From: Chloranthus sessilifolius
Taxonomy: Eukaryota > Streptophyta > Magnoliopsida > Chloranthales > Chloranthaceae
Direction: 5' to 3'
DNA length: 64,000 bases
Assembly (NCBI GenBank): GCA_021018995.1
Contig: CM037590.1
Location: 64,637,597-64,701,596, forward strand
The first letter of the stretch is position 1, and each line of letters opens with the position of its first letter. The position numbers and the translations under genes were made by a program. A model generated the notes under the pieces. The model was not told the DNA's origin, did no database searches, and saw nothing but the letters and a program-made list of their open reading frames with translations. This document shows, piece by piece, positions 35,722 through 64,000 of the stretch.

Positions 35722-35734
35722 AGGTTTGGGGGTG
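35722..35734 (+). promoter_or_regulatory. A1 polypurine tract
   Basis: AGGTTTGGGGGTG directly before the 3' LTR start TGTTAAGACC. A2 has the identical 13 bases before its 3' LTR. Confidence 0.9.
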
Positions 35735-42189: not shown

Positions 42190-42780
42190 ATTAAATCTTA
42201 GTATGCCTGATTAATTTCTTGCTTTAATTAGAATTTGGTGTGATTAATTTCATTACTTTAATTAGATTTTTAGTATAATTAAGTCATTACTTCAATTAGA
42301 ATTTCAATAAAATTAGTTTACTTATTTCAATTAGATTCTTAATAAAAATCAGTTTATTCATTTTAATTGGATTTGAATAAAAATTAATTCATTTGCTTTA
42401 AATTAGAGTTTCAGTAAAATTAGTCTTCTATTTCAATTAGAATTCTAGTAGGACTACTATAATTGTTTTAGTTAGAATTTCGATACAATTAGTATACTTG
42501 ATTTAATTAGAATTCCAATACAACTAGCATACTCGCTCTACTTAGAATCCTAGTACAATTGGCATGCTCAAATTAATTAAAGTTTCACTAGAACCAACAT
42601 GCTTGCACTCCTAGTACGATTAGGAGACTTGAGCATAATCAGACTTCTAATGGGATTAGGAGACTACAAATAATCGGACTCCTAGTAGTATTAGAACACT
42701 AAATTAATTAGAATTCTAATAAGATTAGGAAATTAAATTAATTAGACCCCTAATAGGATTATAATATTAGAATAGGTCCA
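42190..42780 (+). repeat. G2 LTR imperfect tandem array
   Basis: About a dozen imperfect units of 33-40 bp, each of the form TTTAATTAGAATTY.ARTA.AATTAG..TACT. The array is longer than its counterpart in the G1 LTR. No coding content. Confidence 0.65.
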
Positions 42781-43240: not shown

Positions 43241-45000
43241 GTGTCGTTTAGATTCTCTTATATATATATGAGTCTTTGTCAAAGACTCGAGATGTCTGAT
43301 ATACGAAGAGTGAGTTTAGGAGACTCACCATTGTGGGGATATCATGACAACCCCATGTACAGAGAAGAATCACTTCACAATTCTAGCCTACAACAACCTG
43401 AGATTAATATGGCTGGTGAGCAAGAGAATCCCTTCTCTACCCCACACACCGGGAACAATCATGAGCTGAGAGATGGTGGCATCGGATAAAACCTTACTGC
43501 CCAACAAATTGTAGAACTCAGTATCCAAAGAATACAAAGAGGAGATGACATCTCCGAAAAATTGCTTCGAGGATTGGCCGTTGTATATGAAACCATTAGG
43601 TCACGACAACTTTTAGAAGAACAAGAGCGACAAGAGAGGCCACCTCCTACCCCGAGTACGGTGTTGGCCCGTGCCACCTCATTGAGACAACCTGCCCACA
43701 CATTCTTCAACGATGACCCTCTGGACAAGGTTTGCTCATGGGTTCCTCTAAGGGACAACACCATTAAAATCTAAGATCTCCCTAAAATGCTCGATGAGTA
43801 TATGGCCAAGAGAGAGCGTCCCGATCACTCATTCAGGTTCGACAAATTTTGCCGAGATATCGAGTTCAATTTACCAACAGGATTTAAGCCACCAAAGTTT
43901 ACCAAATATAATGGCACCAGAAATTTGAATCATCACTTGGCTCTCTTTTGTAATAATTGTCAACCCATATGTGATAATCAAGGACTTCTCATTCACTATT
44001 TGCAACGCTCATTAGAAGGAGAAGCTTTAGATTGGTTTGTGGGACTCCCGCTTTATAAGATTGAAACCTTTGATGAATTAGTCGGTCAATTCCTAGACCA
44101 GTACAAACATTTGATCCAAGAGACAGTTAGTCTCAGCGACCTAATGGCAGCCAAGCAAGGACCTGATGAAGAATTTATCGACTTCATCGCTAGATGGAAA
44201 AAACTCGCTGTCAGGACCGACACTTCAATGAAAGAGAAGTACTCAGTTGATATTATTATCGACAATACTAGGGAACTATTAAAAAGCGCACTCATCATAA
44301 GTGATTGCCCCGACTTCACTGCACTCCACTCTCGGGCATCCCAACTAGAATGATACATTAAAGGTGAAGATCTCGCGTTATCCATAGTCACGTCAAAAGT
44401 AGGCTCTTCCAACAAATCAAAATCAAAAAATAATAAGAAAGCCTTAGGAACTAAGTAAGTTAACACCGTTATCAACCAAGGACAAAACTCTGGTAACAAA
44501 AACTTCCTACCGCAAAATTTCAGACATAATCAAAACCAATAACGGTATACCAACCAAAATCAAGGTGTTAGTCAATAGATATACGCAAACCAAAACCAGG
44601 GCAGAATGAAAATCAAGGCTAATACAAAAATAGGAACCAGTACCCTAACACCTATCAGAATCAGAACACGACATGGAGTCAAGCGGCCCACGCGTCGAAT
44701 TATAATAGCATACCCCCACCGGAGAACTTCAACCCAGCCAGAGGCCCTTACCAACCAAGGCGGGAACACTATCCCCCTTTATCGGATATAATTCTCAACA
44801 TCTTTTATCTCCCTAACACTCAAAATCTCCTCCGATTCCCATAAGAAAAACTTCGCCCATGGCCTGTAAGTCTAGACTATAGTAAATATTATGCCTTTTA
44901 TTGATACGCGGGGCACAACCTAGAAGATTGTTGGGTCCTCAGGGACGTAATCTATGACATGAATGATCGAAATCAAATTGATTGGAAAGCGCTTAGGAAT
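43241..45000 (+). pseudogene. G2 gag
   Basis: An N-terminal region (MSDIRRVSLGDSP onward) leads to the gag core at about 43850-44300: HHLALFCNNC, LQRSLEGEALDWFVGLPLYKIETFDELVGQFLDQYKH, EEFIDFIARWKKLA. An Asn/Gln-rich linker follows, then the zinc-knuckle-like YAGHNLEDCW near 44905-44940. It forms the capsid-like particle. Broken. Confidence 0.8.
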
Positions 45001-46560
45001 CTCAACCCTAATAATAAGCAACCCCAACAGAGTTTAGGGATCATAAACAACCCCATGCCCAACCACAACCAAGCAACACCGGCCCAAGTCACTACCGTGG
45101 ATCTCCCCAATCAACCTTCCTTCCAGCCCTCTACTTTAATCACTCGCATCCAACCCTTTGCCGCTTCTGCCACACCAGCAAGAGCTTCCTCACCCCTACA
45201 TCCCTCGGCCCTGATCACTCGCATCGCCCCGTCGAGCCCGCCTCCATATCCAAGATTCACTCAGATACGAGTCCATTCCTTTAGGGTCAGGAGACCATCC
45301 CTCCATCGTCACTCACCAGAACCTTCAACCCCTCTAAATCCTAAACCAACACCCTTACCACTCCCTTCGTCCGATTCTGAACCCGAGTGTGGAGAGCACT
45401 TTCTTCGGACTGCAGCCCAAGTTGTCGCATGGGTAGAAAGTGTCACCCGTAAGACTCCAAGCTGAGAGAGTGAAACAAAGACTAAGTGTTTATTGAACGT
45501 AGGAGAAAGTGAGTGAGAAGAACACCTCGACGCTAGTCTCTGCTTTCATAGAAGAGGAGGATTACATGCAATATCTCCCACCTTGGAACGATGCCGTGCA
45601 AGCACACGCTCCGATCTCCAACTTTACTCACTTCACAAACACATCAACATCGAGTCATGTCGGGTTTGGCCAACAACCGATGTGCCCAATTCTCAAGTCA
45701 GGAACCAATTACCCACCTCCTCCTTTCCCTCAGAGTAAGGATTTCATGAGCGCACAATCACCAGAGGAGAATGTGAGAGAAAGAGAGGTTAACTTGCCTC
45801 CCCCACCTCACATCATCCCTCCACCAATCCCTACACCCCAACCATTCCAACCACCCACACCGAAGGCTCACAGGCTGGGCAAAGAAATCGCGCTTGAGCC
45901 AGGACAAGAATATGACCTTTTGCTGGATCTCTAGAAGATCCCAGCCCAGATATCCATACTAGAACTCATCAAGAAATCGCCTGACCATCACCGACTGTTG
46001 ATAAGGATACTTGAAGACACACAAGTAGATGAGGATACAACCCTAGATGAGCTTCATCAAATCACCTCGGTCATAGTGCAACCTCTAACCTCTAACGCTT
46101 ATGTTCACAGTTGCAGACATGCCTAAAGAGTCACTCTGTGGGAGTGCAGCTCCCATATATCTCACGGTCATAATTAGAGGATTCTCTGTACCCCATGCAT
46201 TGGTCGATACGGGAGCGAGACTCAATATTTTCCCTCTCACAATATTAAAGATGCTCGAATACACAGAGCAAGACATCAAGCCCCCCGCACTGTCACTCAT
46301 AGCCTACGATGGCTAGCGTCATTTCGTGAAAGGAACTATTAAACCCTAGGTTCGCCTCGAACCTGTGACGAAAGACGTTACTTTTCATGTTTCCTATTCT
46401 GCTAGTACGTACAATCTTATCTTAGGGAGGAAATGGCTAGAGACGATGAAGGCTGTCGCGTCCACATATCATCAATGCGTCAAGTTCCCATACGACGACT
46501 CTATCATCCATATTTATGCTGATGCACCCCTCCAGGAGATGGATACTGATTACGCGGCAA
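45001..46560 (+). pseudogene. G2 Pro-rich linker and aspartic protease
   Basis: A Pro/Ser-rich spacer to about 45850 is followed by a conserved helix region (LEPGQEYDLL, LELIKKSPDHH) and the protease from about 46100: HALVDTGARLN near 46194-46226 and LILGRKWLE near 46410. The same order as G1 1281-2060. Confidence 0.78.
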
Positions 46561-46749
46561 GCATCTCGACAGCCCATAATTTCATATTAAACACAGGTCA
46601 CATTCAAAAGACCCAAATCCCTGACGAGACAACCATTAAGGAAATCTGTCCCCCTGCTCGTCCTAGTTCTCCCCCAACGCGTTTAGTGAGGAGAGAGGTC
46701 AGTCCAGACCTCGCCAAACTTTATGACATCAATCCCACCATGACGAAAG

Positions 46750-46868
46750 GGTGGGATCTTATCTACCAACTTGGATACGTCTCCCACACCGGACTCGGTA
46801 AGAACAAGCAAGGTCGCATAGGACCTGTCGTCCCAACAAAAATATGCAAACACATAGGGTTAGGTCTT
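46750..46868 (+). pseudogene. G2 G-patch domain
   Basis: GWDLIYQLGYVSHTGLGKN and the following QGRIGPV...GLGL fit the G-patch consensus well. It lies between protease and RT, as in G1. Confidence 0.75.
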
Positions 46869-46899
46869 ATTGCTAACTTATTCTCTACCTCACCAAAAT

Positions 46900-48700
46900 G
46901 GTCTCTATATGACCAATTTGTCTATGAGACCACTGAGAAAGCAAATGTATCAAGGCAGAAGGAAGTGTCCTTCGCCAAATCCCAAAAAATGGAAATTGAA
47001 CGAATGGCCAAAGCATTCAATGATTTGACAAGTCTCAATGACGACGTGGATGAATTGCTTGAAGGAGTTAAACCCCTGTTTGATCTTAAAGAGTCTATAG
47101 AGGAGAGGAAGAGAGATCCTTCAGAAATTGAGCCACGATCAGAAGATTGGGAATCCACCGACGACAAAGACTTTCACATAGCAGCTTTGTAAGATAATGA
47201 AAAGCACATGCGCTCAACATGGGGAGAGGATGACACCCTGTAAGAGAATCTTAACCTGTATAGCATCCGCCTCGATCTTGGCCTTGGAGGGTGGAAATGC
47301 CCGTGGAATTCCCCTTATATCGTTCACACTTACCAGTCCTGCTGTAGGGTATGTACTAGTATATTAGAACGTTTTGCCAATTGGACCCAATGTTCTACGA
47401 TGGAGGAATCGAACCACTCCGACCCCACGATGGCAAAGATCAGCAATGACCTACCAGCTCAGCTACCCGCACAAGAAGCAAAAAATCTTGACAGTTATCC
47501 AGTTGATCCAGAAGGAAACACTCAACACGCTCTTATGGAGTTTGAAGAGGAACTCGAACTAGACACTTCTACATCCCCAGATTCGTCGTGACTCTAAATA
47601 TTTTGGAAATCTCTCGAAGAAGAATGACAACCTCCCCCGAGTGATGACGAAGACTACTGGATAGATCTCCCTAAGCTCGAGTTAGCGGAGCGAGCCAATT
47701 TAGGACTTCAAGCATTATTAGATCAAGAAAGTGAGTTTGATACCGTCTTTGACTCTAACTTAGACAGATGGGAATGCCCTTGGGAATTCCCCTGCATTCT
47801 TCACCATTATCAACCTCGCTGCCGAACATGTGTGCTCATCCTAACATATCATGAAGATCAAGGGAAAGAACTCGCTACCCCTGAGGAGCCTTTGGAAGAT
47901 CCCCATCGGTGGGAAGAATAACCATATTACGACCCAGAAGTGAATAGTTTGATCGACTACAATTTTCAAAATTTCTTTGATGAAGAGGCCAATAACGTGA
48001 TAGAGGAAATCCGAACGTCGGTGCCACTATCGCATGCGTCACTCATTCAAAAGGTCTCATTAGCTGAGGACTCCAAAAAAATGTCAAATTCACAACAAGT
48101 CCGCATTTCCTGAAGAATCGCCCGAACGGCTCCAGCAGCCATCTCACTCCCTCAACTAGAGGAAGAAATTCTCCCGGCGCCCCTTGAGGCGACCAACCTT
48201 GTACCATATTTATTGTCAAAAGTAAAAAAAAAATAGAAAAAATAAAAAACCTTAAAAATTCAAAAATACAAAATCCAAAAAAATCATAAAATCTCATAAA
48301 AGAAAGGAAATTCTTCATCCCGAATCAAATTTTTGGCCAACAAGGAGACTTTTCTCCTAAGGTTTCTATTCCATTCCCTGCGCAAGGACGTGAAGCGTCC
48401 CAACTAAATACCAAGCCAGTGATCATACGGGATGAGGTACTTCGTGACTTTGAGAGAAGAATCAATAGTCTTAAACCTTTACCTTACAGAAGTTCTTTTA
48501 GTTATAAATTATACCCATGAAGAGTTACCTTTCGCAAACTCGGATCCCCAGTATAGCAATTTTATAGTATACGACCTTACTGAGGACGAAGAAAGAGCCC
48601 TAGTTACCAAGGAGGCACTGGACTTCCAACGGGTTACCAAGCATTTCGATGAGTAAACCCAAGTTGCGGCAGAACCCATGAAAGAACTTAACTTTGGCAC
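46900..48700 (+). pseudogene. G2 linker with two Cys/His modules
   Basis: Acidic linker between G-patch and RT. Two copies of a 21-residue module, W-x-C-P-W-x2-P-x3-H-x-Y-Q-x2-C-x2-C, are at 47292-47354 and 47769-47831. The spacing C-x8-H-x5-C-x2-C would suit one zinc ion. I know no named family with this pattern. An A-rich tract near 48220-48300 separates it from the RT lead-in. Confidence 0.55.
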
Positions 48701-49360
48701 TGAAGAGAAACCCAGGAAGCTACTGATTAGTGCAACGCTTAACTCTAAGGAATGCCAACAAATTACACAATTCCTACAAGAACACCTCGATTCCTTCTCA
48801 TGATCCTACGAGGACATGCCCAGTTTAAACCCAAGTCTAATAGAATATCGTCTCATCTTAGAACCCGACGCAAAGCCTGTTAAGCAAAAACTCCATAGAA
48901 TGCACCCACATACTGCCCTCCAAGTTAAAGAGGAAGTCGACAAGTTACACAAAGCTCGAGTGGTTCTTTACCCTAAGTGGATCGCTAATGTAGTACCTAC
49001 CACTAAGAAAGGTGGTAGAGTATGGGTTTGCATCGACTTTCGAAACCTCAACCAGGCATGCCCAAAAGATGACTTCCCACTTCCACACATTGACACTTTA
49101 GTCGACAACACCACTGGACATGAGATGCTATCCTTTATGGATGGTTTCTCTTAATATAATCTTATCAATTAGCAGAGTCCGACTAAGAGAAGACTTCCTT
49201 CACCATACCATGGGAAACATACTGTTACATCGTCATGCCTTTTGGGCTCAAGAACGCATGAGCCACGTATCAATGCGTCATGATGACTATCTTTCACGAC
49301 ATAATGCATAAGTGTGTAGAAGTCTACGTCGATGGCATATTAGTGAAGTCCCAAAGAAAT
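48701..49360 (+). pseudogene. G2 reverse transcriptase
   Basis: DMPSLNPSLIEYRL, then KWIANVVPTTKK, VCIDFRNLNQACPKDDFPLPHIDTLVDNTTGHEMLSFMDGFS and the region of the catalytic YVD box near 49320. This is Tat-type RT matching G1 4141-4830. Broken. Confidence 0.85.
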
Positions 49361-50257
49361 GAACCCAAAGAAATGTGTCTTCGGGGTCACTTCCAAAAAA
49401 TTACTCGGCTTCACAGTTAGCAAGCGAGGGATCGAAGTTGACCCTGCAAAAGTCAGAGCCATCCTCGAGATGTCGCCTCTCAGTAATATCAAAGAGTTAC
49501 AAGGCCTGATAGGAAGATTGCAATTCATTAGAAGATTTATCTCCCAGCATTCGGACAGATGCGATCCTTTCTACAGACTACTTAAAGGAGGAGCTGAGTA
49601 CAAATGGGATGACCAGTGTCGCCAAGCCATTGACAACATCAAGAAGTACCTCCTTAACCCGCCAATACTATCGCCACCTGTCCCCAGAAGACCCCTAATT
49701 CTATACCTCTCAGTGAACGATAAAGTAATGAGAGTAATCCTTAGACAATATGAAGAAGATGACAAAAGAGAGAAGACTATCTACTACCTAAGTAGGATGA
49801 CGGTCTAATACGAACGAAAATACACTTTGATAGAGAAGACTTGCCTCATATTGGTGTGGGCCTCCACCAAATTATGACACTACTTCGGAGCACATAAAAT
49901 ACTGGTACTAGCCTGAATGGACCCTTGAAGTATGTATTCAAGAAGCTCGCAACATCAAGAAAGATCGCTCGCTGGCATATGCTCCTGCAAGAATTCGATA
50001 TCACTTACGTCACACAAAAGTCGATCAAAGGACAAGCAATTGCCGATTACCTCACAGATCTCCCACTCCCGAATGATGAACCCATACACATGGATTTTCT
50101 CGATGAAGACCTATTCACGATCCATAACGAAGAGCCCGATAAGACCTCATGGACCCTTTATTTCGACGACGCTCTAAATTATAAAGGAAAAGGCATCGGG
50201 ATAGTCCTCCTAAGCCCAGAAGGAGTTGTCATACCTAAAGATTTTCAATTAGGTTTC
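49361..50257 (+). pseudogene. G2 RT connection and RNase H, cut by A2
   Basis: RGIEVDPAKVRAILEM and RRFISQHSDRCDPFYRLL mark the RT thumb/connection. PLILYLSVNDK starts the gypsy RNase H near 49690. WTLYFDDALNYKGKGIGIVLLSPEG near 50150 begins the second, archaeal-type RNase H. The element is interrupted by A2 immediately after. Confidence 0.82.
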
Positions 50258-51557
50258 TGATCGGTGCTGAAATATGACCAAAAGTCACACTTTAAATCCT
50301 ATATTTAACTGTTCAATGAAAGCATCTGATGGTTGTTGTGAGGTTTTGATGTTTACAGGTGTTTCCGACAGTTAGATTGCTCAAGTGCATAAAAGAAGGA
50401 AATTACAGGCTAAAAAAGGAGATATGGACAAAAAGGTCCAAAGAAGCATTGAGAGCCATGAAGAGAATCAACTTCCATCAAGAAAAGAAAGACTTTGCAT
50501 TGAAGAGTCAATCGATTGAGGCATTATGGTCAATCGATTGACAGATGGAGAAAAACTCAACCCTGGAAAGTCAATCGATTGAGACATAATATTCAATCGG
50601 TTGAGATATGAAGGCAGAAGTGTTCTAAGGGAATTCGAACTCTAAGTCAATCGATTGAGATTTCTGCCTCAATCGATTGAGGCAATTAGGGTTAGTTTCA
50701 ATCGGATATTATAAATAAGAGGCTTACGGCTTTGAAAAGGGGAGTTGTTTTGTTTTAGAGAGAGAGCCTTTTGAATAGAGAGTTTTTATTTTCTTAGAGA
50801 GTTATTATTTTTGAGAGAAAGTTGTGTAATAACTAGAGACTTTTGTAAGAAGAGTTTTCTGAGAGTATTTAAAATTGTGTTCTTCTTTTTACACCTTCTT
50901 TGCTCTTTACATTGGGAATGATTTTGAATACAATTGAAGATCTTACACCAAGGATGAGAGGCTAAAGGTCAGAGGTCAAGGAGGATGCGATCCCCAGATA
51001 AGTACCTATATTTTATGTTTAATGCCATAGTTTGATAATTTCATCATCAAATCGTTTTTCTCAAAGTGTAGTGATCCTGTTTTTAGTGTTTTGATCTAAA
51101 ATACCATGAGATACGCTATGCTTTTCACATGATTCATACCACATGATTAAGAGTCATTGTTTTTAGATAGAGTATGCCGGGTTAATGATCACGCTTAATT
51201 ACTAGTCATGGTTCTCTTAGAATGATGGTGTGTTGATGTTCATAAAATTGTGGGTTTAAAAATAGAAAAGGGTATAAATCTGGGGTAGCAAATTCCTTGA
51301 TCTTGTTTTAAAAAATTTGTTCTTAGATTTCTCATTACATAATTTTTAGATTAATTTGTTTTCTGTCTTGCAATTAGAAAAGTGTTAACTCTTGGTAAAA
51401 ATTAAAATCTGCCCCTTGGTACTTCCTCGGGGATATTTTCTAAATCTCTAGGAAGAATTGAATAAAATTTCAGATTTCCCTGTGGGTTCGACACCCTTGT
51501 TCTTGCCTTACTAGAACAGATCTTGTACACTTGCAAGGGTTTATTTAAAATTGATCA
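50258..51557 (+). repeat. A2 5' LTR
   Basis: Starts TGATCGGTGC and ends TTGATCA, with inverted ends TGATC/GATCA. U3 carries five CAATCGATTG palindromes (50509, 50531, 50572, 50648, 50670) and one variant. A TATA box TTATAAATA follows at about 50709-50717. It is not alignable by eye with the A1 LTR. Confidence 0.92.
50508..50720 (+). promoter_or_regulatory. A2 LTR palindrome cluster and TATA box
   Basis: Five exact CAATCGATTG sites, two of the pairs 22 bp apart, lie within the 200 bp before TTATAAATA. The 3' LTR keeps all five sites (63241, 63263, 63301, 63374, 63392). The position suggests an enhancer-like array for the genomic promoter. Confidence 0.6.
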
Positions 51558-51563
51558 AGTTTT

Positions 51564-51580
51564 TGGCGCCGTTGCCGGGG
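51564..51580 (+). promoter_or_regulatory. A2 primer binding site (tRNA-Asp)
   Basis: TGGCGCCGTTGCCGGGG, 6 bp after the LTR end, is the Athila-type site complementary to the 3' end of plant tRNA-Asp. Confidence 0.9.
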
Positions 51581-51803
51581 AAATCGGCGAAATTTTGGTT
51601 AATTCCGATTAGAGATTTTTTTTTTTTTTATATATAGCAGTCAACCGATTGAGAATAACCCCTCAATCGATTGACTCTATTTTGTGTGTGTGTGTTTGCT
51701 TGTCAGTCAATCGATTGAGCCTTGTTCTCAATCGATTGATTGTGTGTGTTTTTAGCAATAATTGTGTCTCAATATATTGACACAACTCTGTCAATAGATT
51801 GAA

Positions 51804-51806
<3 letters not shown>

Positions 51807-51849
<43 letters not shown>
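51807..51849. repeat. (TA)n microsatellite in A2 leader
   Basis: An uninterrupted TA run of about 43 bp. Confidence 0.9.
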
Positions 51850-51851
<2 letters not shown>

Positions 51852-52020
51852 CCCTAATTTTCTTTCTTAGATTAGATTTTGTGATTTTTTTTTTAGGAAG
51901 TTTTTATTTTAGGAAGTTTATATTCTTAGTTTAGAAATTTTCTTTTAGGAAAGATTTTTTTTTTAGGTTTTTAATTTCTAATTTCTAATTTTCGAATTTA
52001 GATTTTATTTTATTTTATTT

Positions 52021-52034
52021 AAAAAAAAAAAAAA

Positions 52035-52074
<40 letters not shown>

Positions 52075-52100
52075 TAAAATAAAATAAAAATAAAAAATTT
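52021..52100. repeat. Poly-A, (AAT)n and (AAAAT)n tract in A2 leader
   Basis: 16 A followed by about 12 AAT units and several AAAAT units. Confidence 0.9.
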
Positions 52101-52622
52101 TAGTGGTCTTCTTTCCTTTTCCTTTTTACGTTGCTCTCTGTTGATAGCAGCATTCAATCGATTGAAGCTACTTTCTCAATCGATTGATCCTGAGCCACTT
52201 TCTGTGGGCTCTCTACTTTTCTCTCAATCGCTTGACATTCCTATGTCAATCAATTGTGTAAGTCTTGAGTGTTTTAATCTTTGAACCTCAATCGATTGGG
52301 ATAAGTCTCTCAATCGATTGGATAAAATCTTTTCGATATTCGTGCTTTCGACTCTTGGAACCTCAATCGATTGAGTATCCCTCAATCGATTGACCGACAA
52401 TCATTTGTGAGAAATTTTTTTGCTTCAATCTATTGAGACCACGGTCTCAATCGATTGAGTCCGCTTGAGGACTTATTTTGGGTTCTTCAAACCTTTGATT
52501 GTTGGTGGTGTATGAGCTTTACCTCTCATCACCCACATTTGCTACCGTTTAATCCGGAGATCGAACGATCTTTGCGAGACAATCTTAGAATCCAAAGGAA
52601 TCAGTATCATACTACTAATACC

Positions 52623-54470
52623 ATGGCTAATCAAGAGCAAGAAATGAATGAAAACAACAATTAGAATGGCAACAATGTGAATAATGGAAATAATGGGAAC
52701 AATAATTACTATGGGGGACCTAGAACACTTGAATACTATAATGATCCTGGTTTTTACGAGGATCAGGAGTGTATCATGCATGCTCCCATTCCCGGGAATC
52801 ATTATGAATTCAAATCAGCAATGATTCAAATGCTACCAATATTCCATGGTTTGGCAAATGAAAATCCGCACGTTCATCTGAACGAGTTCACTGGGGTATG
52901 CAAAATGTTCAGAGTCCACAATGTTACTGATGAGATAGCGAAGCTCCGACTCTTTCCGTTCTCTTTAAGAGACAAGGCAAAAACGTGGTTCTATTCTTTA
53001 GAACTGCAATCTATTCAGAGTTGGGCCGAGCTACATCGCTGGTTCCTCAAAAGTATTTTCCCATGACTAAAGCCATAGAGATGCGTCAAAAGATCCTTTT
53101 CTTTTCCCAACAACCTCTGAGAGACATTCCATGAATCTTTGGGAGCGTTTTAAGGAGTTAATCGGTTGCCCTAACCATCAAGTTCCAAGGTGGCAACAAG
53201 TCCAAAGTTTCTACAATGGATCGATTCTCAAGAAAGACGCATGGTTGATGCATCTTGCGGTGGATCTTGTGCCACAGAAAGAGGCCATGAGTTGTGGGCA
53301 TTGTTTGAGAAATTGTATCAAACCTCGATACAGAAAAGCGACCTTTAACCACTTTGGACTTAGCACCTAAATCTCATGTGTTGATCAAAGACGGATTGTA
53401 TGGGGTCAACAATAATAACTCTGATCTATCAACCAAGGTTGATATGCTGTCCAATCAGATGACAATGTTGTTAGCTGGAACCAACCAAGCTAAAGTTCCT
53501 GTCACCCCCATCAGTATGCTCAATTTAGAACACCTGTGTCATATGGCTAATGAGTGCCCAACTACCTTGACATTCCTTCCTGATGAATCTACTCTTCCAG
53601 AGCAGATAAATATCACTCAATCTTATCAGCGGCAAGGTAGAAACGTGTACTCAAATACCTACAACCCAGAGTGGAAAAATCACCCCAACTTAGGATGGGG
53701 TGGATCAAACCAAACCGTCAGTCAACCAAAGAATACCGAGCCAATCCTATGAATGGACAACAAGTTTTTCCACAAAATTTTCAGCAAAATTTCCGTCCAC
53801 AACAGAATTTTCAACAGAATTCTAATTTTCACCAGAATTCTAACTTTCAGCAGAATGCTCCATATTCTCATCCAAATTCTGATTTCCGGAAAAATCAGAA
53901 TTTCAATCAGAATCCTAATCAATCTCATACAAGAACTTCAAAGGATTCTGATCTGGAAGAAAAGGTAATGCGCAGTATGCAATCTTTTCAACAGATGATA
54001 ATCGACAAAGTCAGTCAATTGGCAAATCAACTGAGTCGACGAGAGGAGGGTAAGCTTCCCAGCCAACCCATCAACAATCCTCGCGGCCAAGCATCATCTA
54101 ATGAAGGACCATTAAATAGTCAACAGTTGAAAGTTGTTACTGTGTTGCGAAGTGGACGGGAATTTCATAATCAAGTGGAATTGCCTGTGGAAGCAGAGGA
54201 AAAAAGTGAAGCAGACAAAGAGCAGGAAGCAGATAAAAAGAAAGAGTCAGAGAGAAGAGCGGAGAAAGAGAGAAGAAAAGAGAAGGAGGAAGAGAAAAGA
54301 AGAGAGAAGGGAAAAGAAAAGGTGATAGAGGATGAGTCTCCCTCAACTGTCCAACAAGGACAAGATTCAGAAGGGGAACCCGCACCTTTTGTCCCAAAGG
54401 CACCATTTCCTCAATGCCTAACTCCTCCATCAAGAATGGGAAAGGGACCAACAAAAATGGAAGATATTTT
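52623..54470 (+). pseudogene. A2 gag
   Basis: Likely start MANQEQEMNENN at 52623. The gag core is at about 52830-53340 (FHGLANENPHVHLNEFTGVCKMF, LRLFPFSLRDKAKTWFYSL, LWERFKELIGCPNHQV). A degenerate zinc-knuckle region (HMANECPTT) lies near 53540. A Gln/Asn/Phe-rich repeat (QNFQQN type) is at about 53760-53940, then LSRREEGKLPSQP and a long Glu/Lys/Arg-rich helix near 54185-54330. Broken. Confidence 0.85.
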
Positions 54471-55200
54471 CGAAACATTTAAGCAAGTAAAGATAAACCT
54501 TCCATTGCTTGAAACGATCAAGCAAGTGCCTGAGTATGCAAAGTTTTTCAAAGATTTATGCACTCGGAAGAGAAAGGCACGTAATCATGTTTCGAGGAAA
54601 GTGTTCTTGACTAATCAAGTCAGTTCTATATTGCAATTGGAAACCCCACAAAAACTAAAAGACCCTGGAGTTCCTACTGTTCCATGTGTCATTGGTGGGC
54701 AACCAGTTGGGAAAGCGTTATTGGATTTGGGAGCCAGTGTTAATTTAATCCCATATTCATTGTACGAGAAACTCGGACTGGGTGAATTGAGACCCACAAC
54801 GGTCACACTGCAACTGGCAGATAGATCAGAAAGACGTCCGAGGGGCGTTATTGAGGATGTCTTGGTTGGAATAGATAAGTTTGTCTTTCCAGTGGATTTT
54901 GTTGTTTTGGACATGGACACACCTGTTAAGTCACTTAATCAAGCCCCCATCATCCTTGGACGTCCGTTTCTCGCTACGGCCAACGCGTGCATTAATTGTC
55001 GAGTCATGGACATTTCTTTTGGAAACATGAAGGTTCGATTGAATATCTTCCATGCGATGAACCATTTCCCAAACGAGGATGAAGTCGAATGTTTTTACAT
55101 CGATCAGATAGATGAAGTGGTGGATGAGGCATTACCTTCAATGCTTACCAAAGAGGAATTTGAAAATGCTTTGTTGGCCATCTATGAAGAGAAAGGATCG
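54471..55200 (+). pseudogene. A2 aspartic protease region
   Basis: KQVKINLPLLETIKQVPEYAKFFKDLCT leads into the protease: VPCVIGGQPVGKALLDLGASVNLIP near 54680-54755, LADRSERRPRGVIEDVLVGIDKF, then IILGRPFLATANACINC near 54950-55000. The same frame continues into RT, so protease and RT are one polyprotein, as usual for Athila. Confidence 0.85.
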
Positions 55201-56400
55201 GAAGAGAAGCAGTCCGACGAGAGAGAGTCTAGCTCATCATACCAGGATGATCACTTAGTCATGAGTGTGCCTGAGATAGAATCATTACCTGTTGAGGTGG
55301 AGGACGTGTTGCCTCCATCACTTGAGCAACCACCACTTGTGGAATTGAAACAATTGCCAGAGTCCCTCAAGTATGCTTTTCTGGGACCTCATGAAACACT
55401 TCCAGTAATAATCTCATCCACGTTGTCGGCAGAACAAGAAAAAGAATTGTTGAAGGTGCTGAAAGAGCACAAGGAAGCTATCGGTTGGACTCTCACTGAT
55501 CTCAAAGGGATTGACCCATCGGTATGTATGCATAAAATACATTTGGAAGATGAGAGTAAACCTTCAAGGGAACCACAATTTAATCCAAACATGCAAGAAG
55601 TCGTTCTAAAAGAAGTCATTAAACTCCTTGATGCTGGAATCATCTATCCGATTTCTGATAGTGAATGGGTTAGTCCAGTCCAAATTGTTCCGAAAAAGTC
55701 CGGAATCACTATGAAGGAAACTGCTGAAGGAGAATTGGTCCCCACTCGAGAAACTACTGGATGGCGTGTCTGCATTGATTTTCGAAAATTAAACGCCGCC
55801 ACCAGAAAGGATCATTTTCCCCTTCCGTTCATTGATCAAATCCTTGAGAAGTTAGCTGGGCAAGAGTTTTACTGTTTTCTTGATGGGTATTCGGGATACA
55901 ATCGCCCGCTGTCTACCCGGTGATCAAGAAAAACAACGTTCACATGCCCTTATGGTACGTTTGCATACCGCAGGATGCCATTCGGCCTATGTAATGCCCC
56001 GGCCACATTTCAACGGTGTATGTTGGCCATATTTTCAGATATGATCGACAAATTCATTGAAGTATTCATGGACGACTTCTCGATTTTTAGGAGAACCTTT
56101 GATTCTTGTTTGAATCATCTTTCACAAGTGCTGCAACGTTGTGTTGACTCCAAACTTGTTCTTTGCTGGGAGAAGAGCCATTTTATGGTTAAACAAGGGA
56201 TTGTTCTGGGGCACATTGTTTCACAGAAAGGAATCGAGGTGGATAGAGCAAAAGTTGATCTAATTGCTAACTTGCCACCACCCAACAGTGTTCGACAAAT
56301 TCGGTCATTTTTGGGTCATGCAGGATTTTATCGAAGGTTTATTAAGGATTTCAGCAAGGTGGCTAAACCATTGTGCACCTTGCTTGGCAAAGATGTTCCT
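55201..56400 (+). pseudogene. A2 reverse transcriptase
   Basis: LPESLKYAFLG lead-in, [93 protein letters not shown] and the catalytic FMDDFSIF near 56066-56090. The thumb [24 protein letters not shown] ends near 56380. Broken. Confidence 0.9.
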
Positions 56401-56980
56401 TTTGAATTCTTGACATCGCATGCAAGCATTTTTGAAATTAGAGCTCTTATCCAATGCACCAATAATCCAAATACGGATTATTCTCTCCCATTCGAACTCA
56501 TGTGTGATGCATCCGACACGCAATTGGAGCTGTCCTAGGACAGAGGGTGAATAAATTACCTCACGTAATTTATTATGCTAGCAAGTCATTAATTGATGCC
56601 CAACTCCATTACACCACCACCGAGAAAGAATTATTAGCTGTGGTGTATGCTCTGGACAAGTTTCGTTCCTATTTACTTGGATCAAAAATAGTGGTCTTTT
56701 CAGATCATTCCGCCTTGAAATATCTTCTAGCAAAGAAGGATACTAAACCGAGATTAATCCGTTGGATCCTTCTGCTCCAAGAATTCAATTTCGAGATTAA
56801 GGATAAGAAGGGTGTTGAGAACGTGGTGGCTGATCATTTGTCGAGAATTCTACCTGAAGAATCTGCAATACCTGAGATCATCCGTGACACGTTTCCGGAT
56901 GAACATTTGCTAGCAATTGATATAGCTTATGCAAAGGTTCCATGGTTTGCGAACATTGTGAATTATCTGGTTATCGCGTA
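56401..56980 (+). pseudogene. A2 RNase H
   Basis: [46 protein letters not shown] and [11 protein letters not shown] are the standard gypsy RNase H blocks. No second RNase H follows, consistent with Athila. Confidence 0.88.
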
Positions 56981-58060
56981 ATCCCCAATCGAGTGGGGTA
57001 AGAATGATAAGAATCTCTTTTTCTCCCAAATAAAATACTATTTTTGGGATGAACCATGTCTGTTCAAATTCTGTTCAGATCAGATCATCAGGAGATGTGT
57101 ACCCGAAGAGGAGCAAATGAGCATCCTACACTTGTGTCATCTTTGCAGCTGGCGGCCATTTGAGGATGAAGACCGCCTAAAATCCTTCAAAGCGGATTCT
57201 ATCGCCCTCTATCTTCGTGACGCTCAATTTTGCAAGGAATGCCGACGATGTCAACAGCAATATTTCAAAATGGAATATGATGCCCCTTAATCCAATTTCA
57301 TTGAAATTTTTGATGTTTGGGGATTGACTTTATGGGTCCCTTTCCCCATCCTTTGGGTTTTCATATATTCTAGCGGTATGATTATGTCTCGAAATGGATA
57401 GAAGTCAGGCAACCCATCGAATGATCATAAGGTTGTAGTCAAATTCCTTAGAGAAAATGTGTTTACCCGATTCGAGATTCCAAGAGCAATCATCAGCGAT
57501 GGCGGTTCGCATTTTTGTAATAGCCATTTTGCCACCTTAATGAAGAAGTAAGGCGTCACTCACAAAGTTGCTACGCTGCATTCATCCACAGACTAGCGGT
57601 CAGTGGAAGTGTCTAATCGAAATTGCAATTCTAGAAAAACGGTCCGACCGGATAGAAAAGATTGGTCAAACCGCTCTCAGGCTCAGGGCATATCGACCGC
57701 ATTCAAGACTCCGATTGGAATGTCTCCGCTTGAATTGTTTACGGAAAGCTTGCCATCTTCCCCGTCAATTGGAGCATAAAGCTTTCTGGGCGATAAAAAG
57801 ATTTAATTCTGACATGCAAGCAGCTGGGTCACATCGCCGATTGCAATTGAGTGAATTGGAGGAATTACGCTACGAAGCGTATGAGAATTCGAAAATGTAC
57901 AAGGAAAGGTATAAAAAGCTGCATGATGCATCCATTTCTCGAAAGAATTTCACGTTGGCCAAAAGTTTGTTATTCAATTCCCAAGCTCCACCCGAAAATT
58001 AAAATCTCGATGGAAGGCCCATTTCGTAGTGTCCATTAGTGCGCATGGTGCCATAGAAAT
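56981..58060 (+). pseudogene. A2 integrase, badly decayed
   Basis: Recognisable blocks are the zinc region (CKECRRCQ-like) near 57230-57260, VWGLTLWVPF-like core start near 57315, HPQTSGQ near 57580, KACHLPRQLEHKAFWAIKRFN near 57745-57810 and the C-terminal module near 58000. The region has more gaps than the rest of pol. Confidence 0.75.
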
Positions 58061-58838
58061 TCGGAGCCTTGTTGACAATCGCTTTTGCAAAGTTAATGGG
58101 CAAAGACTCAAACCAATGTTTGAGCCGATCACCCAGTTACAGATTGAGGCGATGCACCTCCGTGATCCCGGGATCGACATCGAAAGGTCGAAATACGACA
58201 TGTAAACTCAGCCTTCGAGGCACCCAGCTTGTTGTTGTAAAAAAAAAAAAAAAAGGAAAGGAGCCCACGGTCAATCGATTGACTGTGACTCCTCAATCGA
58301 TTGAAGGGTCTGTGAAAGTCAATTGACTGAGATTCCTCAATCGATTGAAGAGTCTGTGTCAATCGATTGAGCTTCATCATCAATTTTTTTTAGTCTTTTG
58401 TCTCAATCGATTGAGAATTTGGCCTCAATCGATTGACGTCTTAAGAGTTTGTGCATTTGTGTTGGAAGTTGAACCGCCACCCGACAACTCTTGTCATGGC
58501 AGCTGCCGTCTCGGGTTGGTTTTTCGTGGCCCTTTAATGCCCTTCCGTTTCCAAGGACATCAACCAGCGCTATCAATCCTCAATCGATTGACACCTTAGT
58601 GTCAATCGATTGACATTAAGGTGTGGAGTAATGGCACACGCCAGCCTCCAAGCGAAGTACACGTTCGCTTCCCTCCTCGCGATGTGGGGAGTCCCTGCAT
58701 CCTCAATCGATTGAGCAGTACGCCTCAATCGATTGAGGCTCACACTATATATATGGTCCTCCCCACCCGTGGAGTCTTCATTCGAATTCCAGCCTAATTT
58801 TCAAGCCGAGATCTTATCTCTTCCTTATTTTTGATCCC
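58061..58838 (+). promoter_or_regulatory. A2 spacer with palindromes and internal TATA box
   Basis: After the pol end, ten CAATCGATTG sites lie at 58272, 58294, 58338, 58360, 58404, 58426, 58581, 58602, 58704 and 58726, as five pairs 21-22 bp apart. CTATATATATGG follows at 58745-58756, and the next ATG of a plausible ORF is at 58839. This repeats the LTR layout (palindrome pair, TATA, transcript) and suggests an internal promoter. Confidence 0.6.
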
Positions 58839-59970
58839 ATGGCTGCCCTTATCCGACCACCGCGTCCAGCCCATGATCCGATGCGCATCCCTAACGAGCA
58901 TTATGTCGATCGCCAATTCCAAACGGAGAATTTTTTCGACTTGGTGAAGTATCGGAACATCGCGGAATGCGCACGGTCGATCGAATTCATCGAGGCCCTC
59001 CGTTTGGAAATGCTACTGACCCCACCACCCATCGATGTCGCCCCACGCATCATTCGCCTATTCTATCAAAAGATGGTGTGGGTGCCCGAGACCCTCTCCC
59101 CAACCGGCTTGCCGTTTATCACCATTGAGGTAGATAATTGGCAATATAATCTCCATGCATTGATCTTGCCCGTGCCTTTAATTTCTACGAGGCTCGTCCC
59201 GTCAACCACCACCTTCCTCCGGCTATCGAGCGTAGCCAAGATGATATGATCAACAATATGTGTGGTGGTCGTCGTGGGACCGGTCAGGCCATAAAGCACG
59301 CTGTGTTGCCCATGGATATCCTCTTTTGGGATATAGTTATGGCCAATAACCTTTTGCCACATGGCACCAAGACCGAGCGGACATTGGGTCGGTGAAAGGC
59401 GCTCTCGCTGCACACACCAATACTTGGTTTGATCTTTGGGTTGATGCTCATGAGATGTACCGCTACCATAGTGATATCGCCCGTGCCCCCTAAGCGTGCC
59501 GCGATTCTCCTCCACTTCCACACTATGTGATGCACCTTCGATCACCTTTGCCCCATCTATGACGATGAGGAGATGGGCGACATGCAATTCTATCAATATG
59601 GTGTGAATGTGTGGGTCAAGAGTATCAAGGCGATCATCCGCGTGCAATCGGCCCCGGTTGAGGATGCTCCTCCTCCTCCCCGTCCAAACCCCGCACAGCG
59701 CCAACGTGGCGGTGTTAGGCGACCTCGTCCCGAAGAGGTCCCCGATTTTGATGCCGAGGCGGCTGTTGCTCGCCTCGAGGTGCGGATGGATGGGCTGAAT
59801 GCAAGGCTTGGTGGTGTGGATAGGCGGTCCCGGTTTCAAACTGCTCTCCTTATGCGGATGGCTCGCGAATCATTCCCGGATCGTGCCAACAATTTCATCG
59901 ACGGCGCGAGAGCGGCAATGAAGATGAAGATGATGATGATGATGTGTGATTGTGTTGTTTTGTTGTGAAG
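58839..59970 (+). pseudogene. A2 extra ORF, Transposase_32-like
   Basis: Begins MAALIRPPRPAHDP. The domain region (FQTENFFDLVKYRNIAECARSIEFIEALRLEMLL, PRIIRLFYQKMVWV, FITIEVDNWQYNLHAL) has the pattern of the plant transposon protein family Transposase_32, also seen in A1 at 30000-30590. A Pro-rich piece (EDAPPPPRPNPAQ) and a LEVRMDGLNARLGGVDRRSRFQTALLMRM helix follow near 59660-59870. The function is unknown. A long reverse-strand frame here is a shadow. Broken. Confidence 0.55.
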
Positions 59971-60534
59971 TTTTTCTTTTCTCTGTTTGGTGTTTTTGTT
60001 TTTTTTTTTTTGGTTGTTGATGTATCGGATCGGTGGCTGAAAGTTTAAATGCTAATGTTTGTTTTGTTGTGAGCATCTTATTGTGTTTGGTTTCTGGCTC
60101 TCAGTCAATCGATTGAGATCTCTCTCTCAATCGATTGAGCTACTTCATGCCCTCCTAAATTTTCCTCTGTCAATCGATTGAGACTTCTGTCTCAATCGAT
60201 TGAATGATGCACCTAAATCTGAACATTCCTGGTTTTGGTCTCTATTTTTAGCATGGTTCATCAATCGATTGACATTTAGGTGCCAATCGATTGACACTTA
60301 CTTGGTCAGCCAGTCAAACCCCTGCTGGAATAGGGGAGTTTCTCCAAATATTTGATGTGGAGCTCGGATTTACCATCTTTGCCCTCTCTTGTCAATCGAT
60401 TGACACAAACATGTCAATCGATTGACTGAGACTCCTTTCTAAATATTTCTCCATGCACCGCCTTCCGAATTTTTTTTGTTTTTTTTTCTTTTAAAGTGTC
60501 CCTCTTTTAGGAAATTCTTAGCTATTTAGGGCAC
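59971..60534 (+). promoter_or_regulatory. A2 spacer with third palindrome cluster
   Basis: Eight CAATCGATTG sites at 60116, 60128, 60171, 60193, 60262, 60284, 60392 and 60414, most in pairs 22 bp apart. T-runs flank the cluster. It lies between the two extra ORFs, as the TCGCG cluster does in A1. Confidence 0.65.
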
Positions 60535-60588
60535 TTGTCGGGTCCTCCTTTAGTCCATATTTGTAGTTTCCGTCCCTGCCTTGTCGCC

Positions 60589-60855
60589 ATGTCTTCCATC
60601 CGTCCTCGTACGCGCGCCGCAGTCCAAAAGTTCATGGAACCCGCACGCAAACGTGCCCGATACACCGCTCCACCACCCATCGATTGGTCCACCCATACCA
60701 TCATCCACCTTGATGATGAATCATCATCACCCTACCCCACCCTTATCACCACCTGGCACCAATTCCACCACAACAGTCAAGTTGGAATTTCTGAAGAAAT
60801 ATGGCGCTACGCTTTTCCAAAGCCACGGGGCGGAATCTCGACCATGGCGGACTAG
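60589..60855 (+). pseudogene. A2 small downstream ORF
   Basis: From the second plausible ATG the product begins MSSIRPRTRAAVQKFMEPARKRARYTAPP, a basic stretch with a possible nuclear signal (RKRAR), about 89 residues. An upstream ATG at 60535 would add 18. No family recognised. It lies where A1 also has a small basic ORF. Confidence 0.4.
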
Positions 60856-62163
60856 AGGATTTGTTTTTGGTTTTTAGGGTCTAATTTTACATGTCTTTAG
60901 GGTAGGGTTGTTTTTCTGTTTTTGTTTGGTTTGTTTTCGTTTTGAATTCGTTTGTTTCGTGTTGCATCATGTTAGAATTTTGCTTTACGTTGTTATAATT
61001 TTTTTTTTAATAATAATATAGTTTCGTATTTGTGTTTTCTCTCTTTCCCTTGCTCGGTTGTTTTTGTCCTTTGTTTGCATAGAGCAGGTTTGGGGGAGGC
61101 TTTCTTCCCTTTCTCCACATCATCACCAATGAGGACATTGGCCCGTTCAGGTTTGGGGGGGGGTAATTGTTCTTCTATTTAAAATTGAAAAAAAAAAAAA
61201 AAAAACCTTGTAGCTGTTCTCGGATTTTTGAATGTTTATCAGTCAATCGATTGAGCATACTGTCTCAATCGATCAACTGATAAACATTAAAAGATATAAG
61301 AATATAGGCTTTACCAATCGATTGAGTCCACTCACCAATCGATTGAGTTCATTTCACAATCGATTGAGAATTTGGTCTCAATCGATTAACTGAGGGTTGG
61401 CAAAAGCTGTAATCTAATTGATTATTCATATTTGTGAGCATGAAGATTCTTCCTGAAATTTCTTTAATCAATGCTATCATACCATGGTTATTTTATGAGT
61501 GCCCATAAGGTGTAGATATTGAACATTAATGATCATGAATCATGCTTAAAAATAATTGTTTTCATCACTCGCTTTCAATCTCAAAATCGGAGGATTAAGT
61601 GTGTAACATGGAATCCTAAAGATCACAAAGAAAGACTAAAACCTTGAAAGTTTTTGAAACACTTGTCCTTGCTCTTAATGAGTCAAATAAATTCGGAGTA
61701 TCTTTGAAATCCTTGTTCCAATTATTAAAACCCATTGATTTGTGATTTTATGTGTGTTATAACATTACACTAGAAATCATTGTGTACTAACTTGAGGCAA
61801 ATGGGCATATTTTACCATCATGAAAGGAAATGATCTAAGGCCATCATTGGTTCGTCTGTGCTTAAAATGACCCACCTTATAAATTTACCCTTCTAGTACA
61901 CCTTTGAACTTATTGGAAATTTACCTTTATACATTCTTTGATAAGCTGCAATAACCATTAACCCCTTACCGCTTCTGAAAATTCAGCTTGCCCTTACTTA
62001 TTTCTGAGAAATTAGGAACAAGGGATGAAAATGAGTGAAACGAGAGTAAGTGGGGATTATATGTGTTATAGTGTGTACTGAAAAAAAAAAAAAAAAAAAA
62101 GGAGAAGTAAAGGAAATTGCAAAAACAATGAAAAATATATTGAGAAGAATGGTGAGAGACTAG

Positions 62164-62198
<35 letters not shown>

Positions 62199-62776
62199 GA
62201 ATAAAAATACAAAATCAGTAGTTGTTTCTTTTCCAATTTCTCAGAAATTTTTGAATCTATCCTTCCTTTCTTCTCTTAACCTTAACCCGAGCCCCATTAC
62301 AACCTTAGAAAAGACCTTTTTGATCCAATCATGAGTGATGAAATGCCTTGTGGAGAGTAAGTACACAATTGTCTATGGTGCTTGATATATGCATGCTTAA
62401 AATACAGATATCTTTCTTGATGAGATTTCCCTTATAATTCTTTGATACACCATATATCTTTAAACTTGTGAGATTTTCTTCTAATTGTGTTACAATTCCA
62501 TCTCATTCATCAGAAGTGATTTCATTCTGAGTGTATACCCATGGTGAGGATTGGAGTCTAGACATGCGATCTAAAAGTTCCAGTTTAAAGCTTTTTCCTC
62601 TGACATAAGAACTTTGGGCAGTGATGATCTCATGACATTGAGGCATGAAATATGAACATTAGAAGACAATGGTCTGAACTGAATGTGGCATAAATGGAAT
62701 GAACGTGGTTAGATGTATTTTTAAAAAAGATTTTTCAGGAGCATCTAATTGCTAAAGGACATGATTAATCAATCCT
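60856..62776 (+). other. A2 3' non-coding region
   Basis: No supported gene. It has two internal polypurine-like sites (61086-61099 and 61149-61163), four CAATCGATTG sites (61244, 61314, 61335, 61357), A-runs at about 61185-61205, 62081-62100 and 62165-62193, and two short blocks similar to A1 (61112-61163, 62290-62380). Confidence 0.55.
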
Positions 62777-62976
62777 GATAGCCTTGAAGTTTGTAGGTAC
62801 CTTCACTGAAAACCTTCAGGAGACGCAACTCCTCCACTAGGGATCACCTAGGGGTTTAAAGGCTTGTTGCACATGCTAAGTGCAATTGTGTTCCCTACGA
62901 AAGTGGCATTTAAATTTTAGGATGTTAGTTTATTTTTATATTTATCATTCTCTTTGCTCGAGGACTAGCAAAGTGT
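62777..62976 (+). promoter_or_regulatory. A2 conserved block before polypurine tract
   Basis: Counterpart of A1 35553-35721, sharing TTCACTGAAAACC, CTCCTCCACTAGGGATCACC, CTAGGGGTTT, AAAGTGGCATTTA and GACTAGCAAAG. The A2 copy has an extra T-rich insertion near 62915-62955. Confidence 0.6.
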
Positions 62977-62989
62977 AGGTTTGGGGGTG
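62977..62989 (+). promoter_or_regulatory. A2 polypurine tract
   Basis: AGGTTTGGGGGTG directly before the 3' LTR start TGATCGGTGC. Confidence 0.9.
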
Positions 62990-64000
62990 TGATCGGTGCT
63001 GAAATATGACCAAAAGTCACACTTTAAATCCTATATTTAACTGTTCAATGAAAGCATCTGATGGTTGTTGTGAGGTTTTGATGTTTACAGGTGTTTCCGA
63101 CAGTTAGATTGCTCAAGTGCATAAAAGAAGGAAATTACAGGATAAAAAAGGAGATATGGACAAAAAGGTCCAAAGAAGCATTGAGAGCCATGAAGAGAAT
63201 CAACTTCCATCAAGAAAAGAAAGACTTTGCATTGAAGAGTCAATCGATTGAGGCATTATGGTCAATCGATTGATGATGGAGAAAACTCAACCTCGAAAGT
63301 CAATCGATTGAGACATAATATTCAATCGGTTGAGATATGAAGGCGTATGTTCTAAGGAATTCGAACTCTAAGTCAATCGATTGAGATTTACTCAATCGAT
63401 TGAGGCAATTAGGGTAAGTTTCAATCGGATATTATAAATAAGAGGCTTACGGCTTTGCAAAAGGGGGAAGTTGTTTTGATTCAGAGAGAGAGTGTTTTGA
63501 ATAGAGAGTTTTTATTTCTTAGAGAGTTATTATTTTTGAGAGTAATTTGTGTAATAACTAGAGACTTTTGTAAGAAGAGTTTTCCGAGAGTATTTAAAAT
63601 TGTGTTCTTCTTTTACACCTTCTTTGCTCTTTACATTGGGAATGATTTTGGATACAATCAAGATCTTGCACCAAGGATGAGAGGCTAAAGGTCAGAGGGT
63701 CAAGGAGGATGCGATCCCCAGATAAGTACCTATATTTTATGTTTAATGCCATAGTTTGATAATTTCATCATCAAATCGTTTTTCTCAAAGTGTAGTGATC
63801 CTGTTTTTAGTGTTTTGATCTAAAATACCATGAGATACGCTATGCTTTTCACATGATTCATACCGCGATTAGGCTGAGTCATTGTTTTTAGATAGGGTAT
63901 GCCGGGTTAATGATCACGCTTAATTACTAGTCATGGTTCTCTTAGAATGATGGTGTGTTGATGTTCATAAAATTGTGGGTTTAAAAATAGAAAAGGGTAT
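62990..64000 (+). repeat. A2 3' LTR, first 1011 bp
   Basis: Nearly identical to 50258 onward, including the five U3 palindromes and the TATA box near 63431. It should end about 290 bp past the window edge. Confidence 0.92.

Follow-up and report, generated by a model that had tools for sequence, protein, structure and literature searches.

Arrays of short palindromes or other short motifs are known from transposable elements, and the arrays of paired palindromes described here are a variant of these, nearest to the RM boxes of Sireviruses and to the motifs of the VANC/VANDAL system. They lie in A2, judged from its domains to be a Ty3/gypsy retrotransposon and called Athila-like without a reverse transcriptase tree, which occupies part of a 64-kb stretch of the Chloranthus sessilifolius genome (GenBank assembly GCA_021018995.1, contig CM037590.1, positions 64,637,597 to 64,701,596 of the forward strand). 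This whole stretch of 64,000 nucleotides is called the window, and its coordinates are used throughout.

As described in the available part of the report on Sireviruses (Bousios et al. 2010, PMC2829016), RM (repeated motif) boxes are short palindromes present in many copies. They occur in the long terminal repeat (LTR) ahead of its TATA box and, if the element has env, also ahead of the env-like open reading frame (ORF); their sequence varies by family, and the flanks are divergent. A2 resembles them closely, having a palindrome in at least eight copies upstream of both the LTR TATA box and ORF1, an extra ORF that is env-like by position. However, the hosts of RM boxes are Ty1/copia Sireviruses, whereas A2 is a Ty3/gypsy element with an RM-like array and is not a Sirevirus; the boxes have been called Sirevirus-specific, relative to other Ty1/copia elements (PMC2829016). 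A fixed 22-bp pairing, present in A2, is not mentioned for RM boxes in that part of the report. RM cores are CGG-CCG except in the tobacco element Tnd-1, which has eight copies of ACAATCGATTGT with a 10-bp core identical to that of A2 (PMC2829016). Tnd-1 lacks env and its copies are confined to the LTR, whereas A2 adds arrays in the leader and after ORF1. For Athila elements, the titles and abstract openings listed from a mostly open literature contained no report of palindrome arrays, which does not imply their absence from print.

VANDAL elements share with A2 a dense set of short, mainly noncoding motifs and an extra encoded protein, and their motif differs by family and can occur in an unrelated transposon, according to the portions seen of two reports (PMC5735166, PMC10398659). 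They are Mutator-like DNA transposons, whereas A2 has LTRs, gag and reverse transcriptase. The VANC21 motif YAGTATTAY is described there as non-palindromic, in one orientation and in tandem repeats; that of A2 is palindromic with diverged spacers, though a few short tandem arrays are present. VANC proteins are also said there to have highly variable regions, whereas ORF1 is strongly conserved across 11 copies, and the VANC system comprises binding and demethylation, of which any counterpart in A2 is a prediction from sequence. Retand is, like A2, a plant Ty3/gypsy element whose region from pol to the 3' LTR contains repeats and additional ORFs, and DNA binding and regulation have been suggested by the authors for its TRP28 ORFs (PMC11963269). 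Its ORFs are antisense and its repeats ordinary tandem ones, and the available text does not report paired palindromes.

Distribution and pairing of the palindromes

The 10-mer CAATCGATTG occurs 42 times in the window and every copy lies inside A2: five in the 5' LTR, 10 in the leader, 10 between pol and ORF1, eight in the gap after ORF1, four in the 3' linker and five in the 3' LTR. A sequence-only reading of this DNA had given about 42 copies with the same numbers per segment, and its claim that the palindromes avoid the genes also held, with no exact copy in the coding DNA of A2 (the gag-pol stretch, ORF1 and ORF2). Most of its coordinates fit; its pair 60392/60414, however, gives the starts of the full 12-mer, the 10-mers starting at 60393/60415. 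Its extra ORF is motif-free as described, but the reading frame is broken by frameshifts in the A2 copy. The 12-mer TCAATCGATTGA is found at 36 sites in A2; if two mismatches are allowed, A2 has 53 sites and the rest of the window one. In 300 shuffles of A2 that preserved dinucleotides, a control suggested along with the original counts, the mean was 0.03 copies of CAATCGATTG and the maximum two, against 42 observed.

The sites had been described as pairs 21-22 bp apart, and the pairing proved to be stronger than that. At up to two mismatches, 52 of the 53 sites in A2 form 26 doublets, 22 of them spaced at exactly 22 bp, two at 21 bp and two at 19 bp. Partners with one or two changes complete these doublets, and therefore most sites that appear single by exact matching are doublet halves. 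The sole unpaired site, at 58319, is degenerate; sites 58337 and 58359 were paired by hand, the greedy pairing script having joined 58319 to 58337 and left 58359 single.

Genome-wide counting, also suggested earlier, showed the same dominance of the 22-bp spacing. The host genome (2.17 Gb) contains 69,635 copies of CAATCGATTG versus 2,281 of the reversed word, the uniform expectation being 2,068. Exact doublets at 22 bp number 20,419 (control 0); the 30 spacings of 23-52 bp together account for 8,724 (control 1) and the 11 spacings of 11-21 bp for 1,069 (control 0). Spacings of 23-52 bp thus average about 291 doublets each, a mean that the 22-bp spacing exceeds about 70-fold. The first 100 listed places give 63 gaps of less than 130 bp between neighbours, 30 of them exactly 22 bp. 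That other family members might lack the motif, an objection that the sequence-only reading had raised against itself, does not hold; they have the motif at the same 22-bp spacing.

Conservation of motif and spacer

Within A2 the 10-bp spacers have a mean pairwise identity of 36.6% (21 spacers) versus 27.5% for background, or 37.2% excluding the 3' LTR (20 spacers) and 31.1% over the inner six bases. Between A2 and another copy, at C1:2.89-2.92 Mb (L017-L019), 696/732 motif columns are identical, as are 725/908 columns within 10 bp of a motif, 6703/7644 in other noncoding DNA and 7228/8068 in coding DNA. Whole 12-mers were identical in 46 of 61 cases between these two copies, and CpG was kept at 56/59 positions in motifs and 81/123 elsewhere. 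Five more distant loci retained 177/180 motif columns, compared with 115/200 within 10 bp and 4740/6257 in other noncoding DNA; in the two most distant loci no motif columns were aligned. Upstream of ORF1 (up to 640 bp, in 11 fetched copies and the window), mean pairwise identity is 0.862 in motif columns, 0.639 in non-motif columns and 0.577 in non-motif columns within 10 columns of a motif. This conservation holds although the synonymous divergence (dS) of ORF1 is about 1.2 between two groups of copies. The two LTRs of A2, over the 1,002 aligned columns of the part inside the window, differ by 19 substitutions and 16 gaps, with 0/72 motif columns changed, a result that alone is not significant.

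Position relative to TATA boxes

The last site in the A2 LTR ends 29 bp before TATAAATA at 50710. Ahead of ORF1, TATAWAW begins 9 bp past the last doublet in nine of the 11 fetched copies. L041, taken from an upstream ATG, and L044 have no TATAWAW match at that place.

Doublets in other families and the array of A1

Doublets at 22 bp are also found in a Ty1/copia LTR (L036 3900-4900), with related stretches at L029 4480-5281 and L034 4988-5653. L036 carries the Pfam domains Pol_BBD and gag_pre-integrs and a primer site that we take to be of the iMet type. A third, LTR-like family of 2.5 kb with TG...CA ends bears them as well, having 14-19 motif sites per copy (up to one mismatch) and doublet-bearing units that are duplicated internally. 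Long ORFs were not found in the four stretches of this family (Table 1), which are perhaps solo LTRs. When neighbouring sites less than 60 bp apart are considered, the gap is 22 bp in 140/200 cases in Athila-like loci versus 24/59 in the others, many of the loci in this tally having been picked for holding doublets.

The window contains a second Athila-like element, A1 (20262-38247), with 2.5-kb LTRs and no CAATCGATTG. In this case there is a different, CpG-rich TCGCGMRRTTCA-like array in the LTR and before and after the extra ORF, with many steps of about 30-34 bp ahead of that ORF and 13 forward TCGCG in 28654-29838; the leader and gag-pol of A1 have no TCGCG. Three further 901-bp stretches of the A1 family have five, 13 and eight TCGCG sites and no CAATCGATTG. 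The ORF1 products of A1 and A2 share 28% identity over 47 residues and 30% over 54. The evidence from the A1 array is weak because its motif is only slightly better kept than its surroundings (identity 0.833 vs 0.785; CpG kept 51/70 vs 25/47).

The ORF1 protein

At least 150 ORF1 matches were scored among 19,057 genomic candidates, and several are stop-free open frames of 407-430 residues. Nine of the 11 fetched copies are open at 381-391 residues from ATG, and two end earlier. The ratio of nonsynonymous to synonymous divergence (dN/dS) is 0.07 between the two copy groups (24 pairs, dS about 1.2) and 0.20 (28 pairs) and 0.15 (three pairs) within groups; purifying selection on ORF1 is strong. 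Features of the protein sequence are a basic linker, a heptad stretch resembling a coiled coil, and an acidic tail. Its top 19-residue hydropathy is 1.11-1.77 over the 11 copies, and because two of the 11 exceed 1.6, the usual threshold for a membrane segment, such a segment may be present. PF20167 (Transposase_32) aligned with ORF1 of the family copy L040 over positions 5-176 of 177 (E 0.0061, 16.9 bits, cut-off 45). A search of the Protein Data Bank (PDB) found no relative at E up to 10, structure predictions were worthless (mean predicted local distance difference test scores of 36 and 31), and protein searches retained 0/19 candidates with an ORF1 piece and 0/2 with a motif-rich translation. 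In sunflower, as far as the accessible text of the report goes, an Athila ORF matching Transposase_32 has a predicted nuclear signal and a transmembrane helix is reported in a different, antisense Athila ORF (PMC11728184).

An open ORF of 423 residues at L030 5290-6558 (- strand) matches Pfam Transposase_32 (E 2e-11, 44.3 bits, cut-off 45), and no clear similarity to ORF1 of A2 was found in the pieces compared.

Interpretation of the doublets

We consider it probable that the TCAATCGATTGA-N10-TCAATCGATTGA doublets are DNA-level, promoter-proximal protein-binding sites. The 12-mer is self-complementary, its halves are conserved and the spacers vary freely, which is how a site that a symmetric protein reads from double-stranded DNA would look, and a dimeric or tetrameric DNA-binding protein, as the sequence-only reading proposed, is the best reading that we have. 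One protein dimer would occupy each 12-bp palindrome; with a separation of about two helical turns, the palindromes of a doublet would bring their two dimers to the same face of the DNA, so that the doublet would be one composite site. Arrays lie immediately ahead of the LTR TATA box and of the TATA box that precedes ORF1, and further ones are in the leader and flank ORF2; a protein bound to them would stimulate transcription or maintain open chromatin. Binding, the dimer stoichiometry and activation are what we infer; enrichment, exact spacing, avoidance of coding DNA in A2, conservation of the motif relative to spacers and adjacency to TATA boxes are what we observe.

Several points weigh against this interpretation. 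No fixed helical phase between doublets was established (no clear 10.5-bp peak among 16 gaps), this test and that of stem pairing in A2 having used 23 of the 26 doublets, with three 3' LTR doublets omitted as duplicates. A clear TATA box was not found downstream of the leader and 3'-linker arrays, and ORF2 has only CTAAATAT. As for conservation, LTR sites enter the counts for both LTRs in the comparison with the C1:2.89-2.92 Mb copy, the alignments of the distant loci (177/180) were possibly seeded in BLAST by the motif itself, and columns upstream of ORF1 counted as motif if at least six of 12 rows had a site there, a choice that favours conserved columns. The stretches compared are a small fraction of the genome, namely the first 5.4 Mb of C1, chosen for bearing the motif, and loci found with ORF1, and the genome counts are possibly lower bounds.

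The doublets might instead be a functionless by-product of tandem duplication or gene conversion, and in keeping with this doublets 58403 and 61356 share 9/10 spacer bases, like old duplicates, Tandem Repeats Finder detects short arrays at 58270-58370, 60098-60139 and 61313-61368, and the A2 spacers are slightly more alike than background. However, the 12-mers are kept while the spacers diverge between copies, and simple tandem duplication therefore fails as an explanation; the sequence-only reading had itself pointed to a duplicated unit with conserved inter-site bases, and we found these bases to diverge faster than the motif. Motif CpG is moreover kept better than CpG elsewhere and the coding regions of A2 are motif-free, and we regard this explanation as largely refuted and hardly credible. 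A role in RNA, also very improbable in our judgement, would have each doublet fold as a 12-bp stem with a 10-nt loop and serve as a source of small interfering RNA or as a packaging or dimerisation signal. Any two copies of the palindrome can pair, predicted folds use the doublets, one inner base pair extends the stem beyond chance (0.74 vs 0.48, p 0.003), and palindrome clusters of maize Sireviruses draw excess small RNAs (Bousios 2016, as given in the part seen of PMC10760457). But 13 of 18 substitutions in A2 break the pair, and among 172 distinct doublets 88 of the 96 changed pairs were altered on one side only (55 broken, 33 G-U), seven were compensated and one was changed on both sides and broken, although 40/96 are still able to pair. 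Because the changes are mostly uncompensated, pairing in RNA is probably not what the doublets mainly serve. The outer flanks add nothing to the stem, a stem requires no self-palindromic arms, and the 5' LTR array sits upstream of the TATA box.

If the doublets are protein-binding sites, we lean towards a host transcription factor used by several LTR families, with the ORF1 protein as the bolder candidate. The occurrence of the same doublets in Athila-like elements, the Ty1/copia LTR and the 2.5-kb TG...CA family, together with the Tnd-1 core, favours a host factor whose paired site was taken up by unrelated LTR families as an enhancer, and this we find plausible while placing it a little short of probable. 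Against it, we know of no host factor that binds such paired palindromes, and A1, which is Athila-like and in the same window, bears a different array. Among the listed papers of a mostly open literature that contain CAATCGATTG, PMC2829016 is by title the only one on transposons, and a query for a AATCGATT factor was uninformative, its matches lacking the word. Alternatively, a nuclear ORF1 protein might bind the doublets and activate or un-silence its own copies, with other families hitchhiking, which we think rather unlikely. Evidence for such an element-encoded factor includes the location of the strongly conserved ORF1, which has arrays on both sides, and the distinct array of A1, along with the basic linker, heptad stretch and acidic tail of the ORF1 protein, the divergence of ORF1 in A1, and the nuclear signal predicted in sunflower. 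Sharing between families is compatible with it, given the VANC6 motif reported in the unrelated transposon AT9TSD1 in the text seen of PMC5735166. On the other hand, the PF20167 match and the PDB search revealed no recognisable DNA-binding domain in ORF1, a membrane segment is possible in two of 11 copies, a transmembrane helix is reported for another, antisense Athila ORF of sunflower, the motif is common to families where ORF1 is not demonstrated, and the evidence from A1 comes from one element and three short stretches whose motif is only slightly better kept than its surroundings. More doubtful again is the full proposal that Athila-type elements have a sequence-specific regulatory system of their own. 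In that view the conserved ORF1, usually classed as envelope-like, would be a nuclear protein that recognises paired palindromes peculiar to each family, both at the LTR and at the internal promoter of ORF1, and would maintain transcription of the copies or protect them from silencing; unrelated LTR families with the same doublet would profit from it. If true, this system would be for LTR retrotransposons what VANC is for VANDAL elements.

Retrotransposons that carry an additional, envelope-like gene abound in plants, and in the parts of the literature available a demonstrated function is reported neither for that gene nor for the palindromic boxes of Sireviruses. A strictly paired site with about 20,000 occurrences in this one genome, common to Ty3/gypsy and Ty1/copia elements, is a precise and cheap probe, and a protein binding the doublet may govern many elements of the genome.

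Two classes of plant sites were rejected as matches to the motif. The WRKY W-box has the core TTGAC, which is present at 11/42 right ends, with GTCAA at 17/42 left ends. HD-Zip proteins bind the 9-bp CAATNATTG, which is one base shorter.

Structure of A2 and surrounding sequence

The Pfam domains of A2 are in Ty3/gypsy order (Retrotrans_gag, Asp_protease_2, RVT_1, RT_RNaseH). Pfam detected no integrase domain in the fragmented frames of A2; in the family copy L040 it matched rve in an open segment that precedes ORF1 (E 8.6e-12, above cut-off). The best named relatives listed are plant proteins of at most 56% identity, without lineage labels. The features are listed in Table 1.

Table 1. Features of element A2 in window coordinates, and copies of the 2.5-kb family
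Feature	Position	Strand	Remarks
Target duplication GTTTC, 5 bp	50253-50257		by eye; second copy after 3' LTR, just past window end (L022)
5' LTR (TGATCGG...TTGATCA)	50258..51557	+	ends by eye
5' LTR doublets 50508/50530, 50571/50593, 50647/50669	50508..50680	.	all 22 bp
Primer-binding site TGGCGCCGTTGCCGGGGA	51564..51581	+	presumably matches 3' end of tRNA-Asp
Leader doublets 51641/51663, 51707/51728, 51769/51791, 52154/52176, 52224/52246, 52288/52310, 52363/52382, 52425/52447	51641..52458	.	8 in total, several degenerate
gag-pol stretch	52623..58207	+	several broken frames; Pfam gag, aspartyl protease, RVT_1, RT_RNaseH
Doublets between pol and ORF1 58271/58293, 58337/58359, 58403/58425, 58580/58602, 58703/58725	58271..58736	.	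plus degenerate single 58319
TATA box	58746..58754	+	likely internal promoter; 9 bp past last doublet, 93 bp before ORF1 ATG
ORF1 (extra ORF)	58839..59970	+	frameshifted in A2
Doublets after ORF1 60105/60127, 60170/60192, 60261/60283, 60392/60414	60105..60425	.	
ORF2	60589..60855	+	88 residues, basic stretch; no Pfam match
3' linker doublets 61243/61265, 61314/61335, 61356/61378	61243..61389	.	
3' LTR, cut by window end	62990..64000	+	LTR alignment; 281 further bases in L022
3' LTR doublets 63240/63262, 63300/63322, 63373/63392	63240..63403	.	last at 19 bp
Copies of 2.5-kb TG...CA family	L021 3594-5972, L027 3893-6550, L028 3794-6311, L037 3195-5704		

Searches of IMG/VR returned no matches with the doublet and nothing useful with A2 pol. 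With the primer-binding site there were four, all in GC-rich contigs where signs of a retroelement were absent by eye. In prokaryotic genomes the doublet search gave two matches, L005 3640-3690 (an Acidobacteria metagenome-assembled genome) and L006 5230-5280 (Geothrix rubra), each with two ATCAATCGATTGAT palindromes 22 bp apart, the same geometry as in A2. The genes on both sides of the L006 doublet start with a Pfam TetR_N domain, and both doublets look like tandem TetR-type operators, parallel to rather than kin of those in A2. Unlike A2, they come from unrelated organisms, with a single doublet each and no transposon array.

Another gypsy-like sequence is present twice in the window, at 3-5803 and 44528-50258, the two copies having diverged (76-82%). 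The second copy, which is older sequence, has the A2 insertion at its end, and both copies are weakly similar to the A2 reverse transcriptase. Several overlapping tandem repeat arrays, with units mostly of 34-36 bp, occupy 42208-42761.

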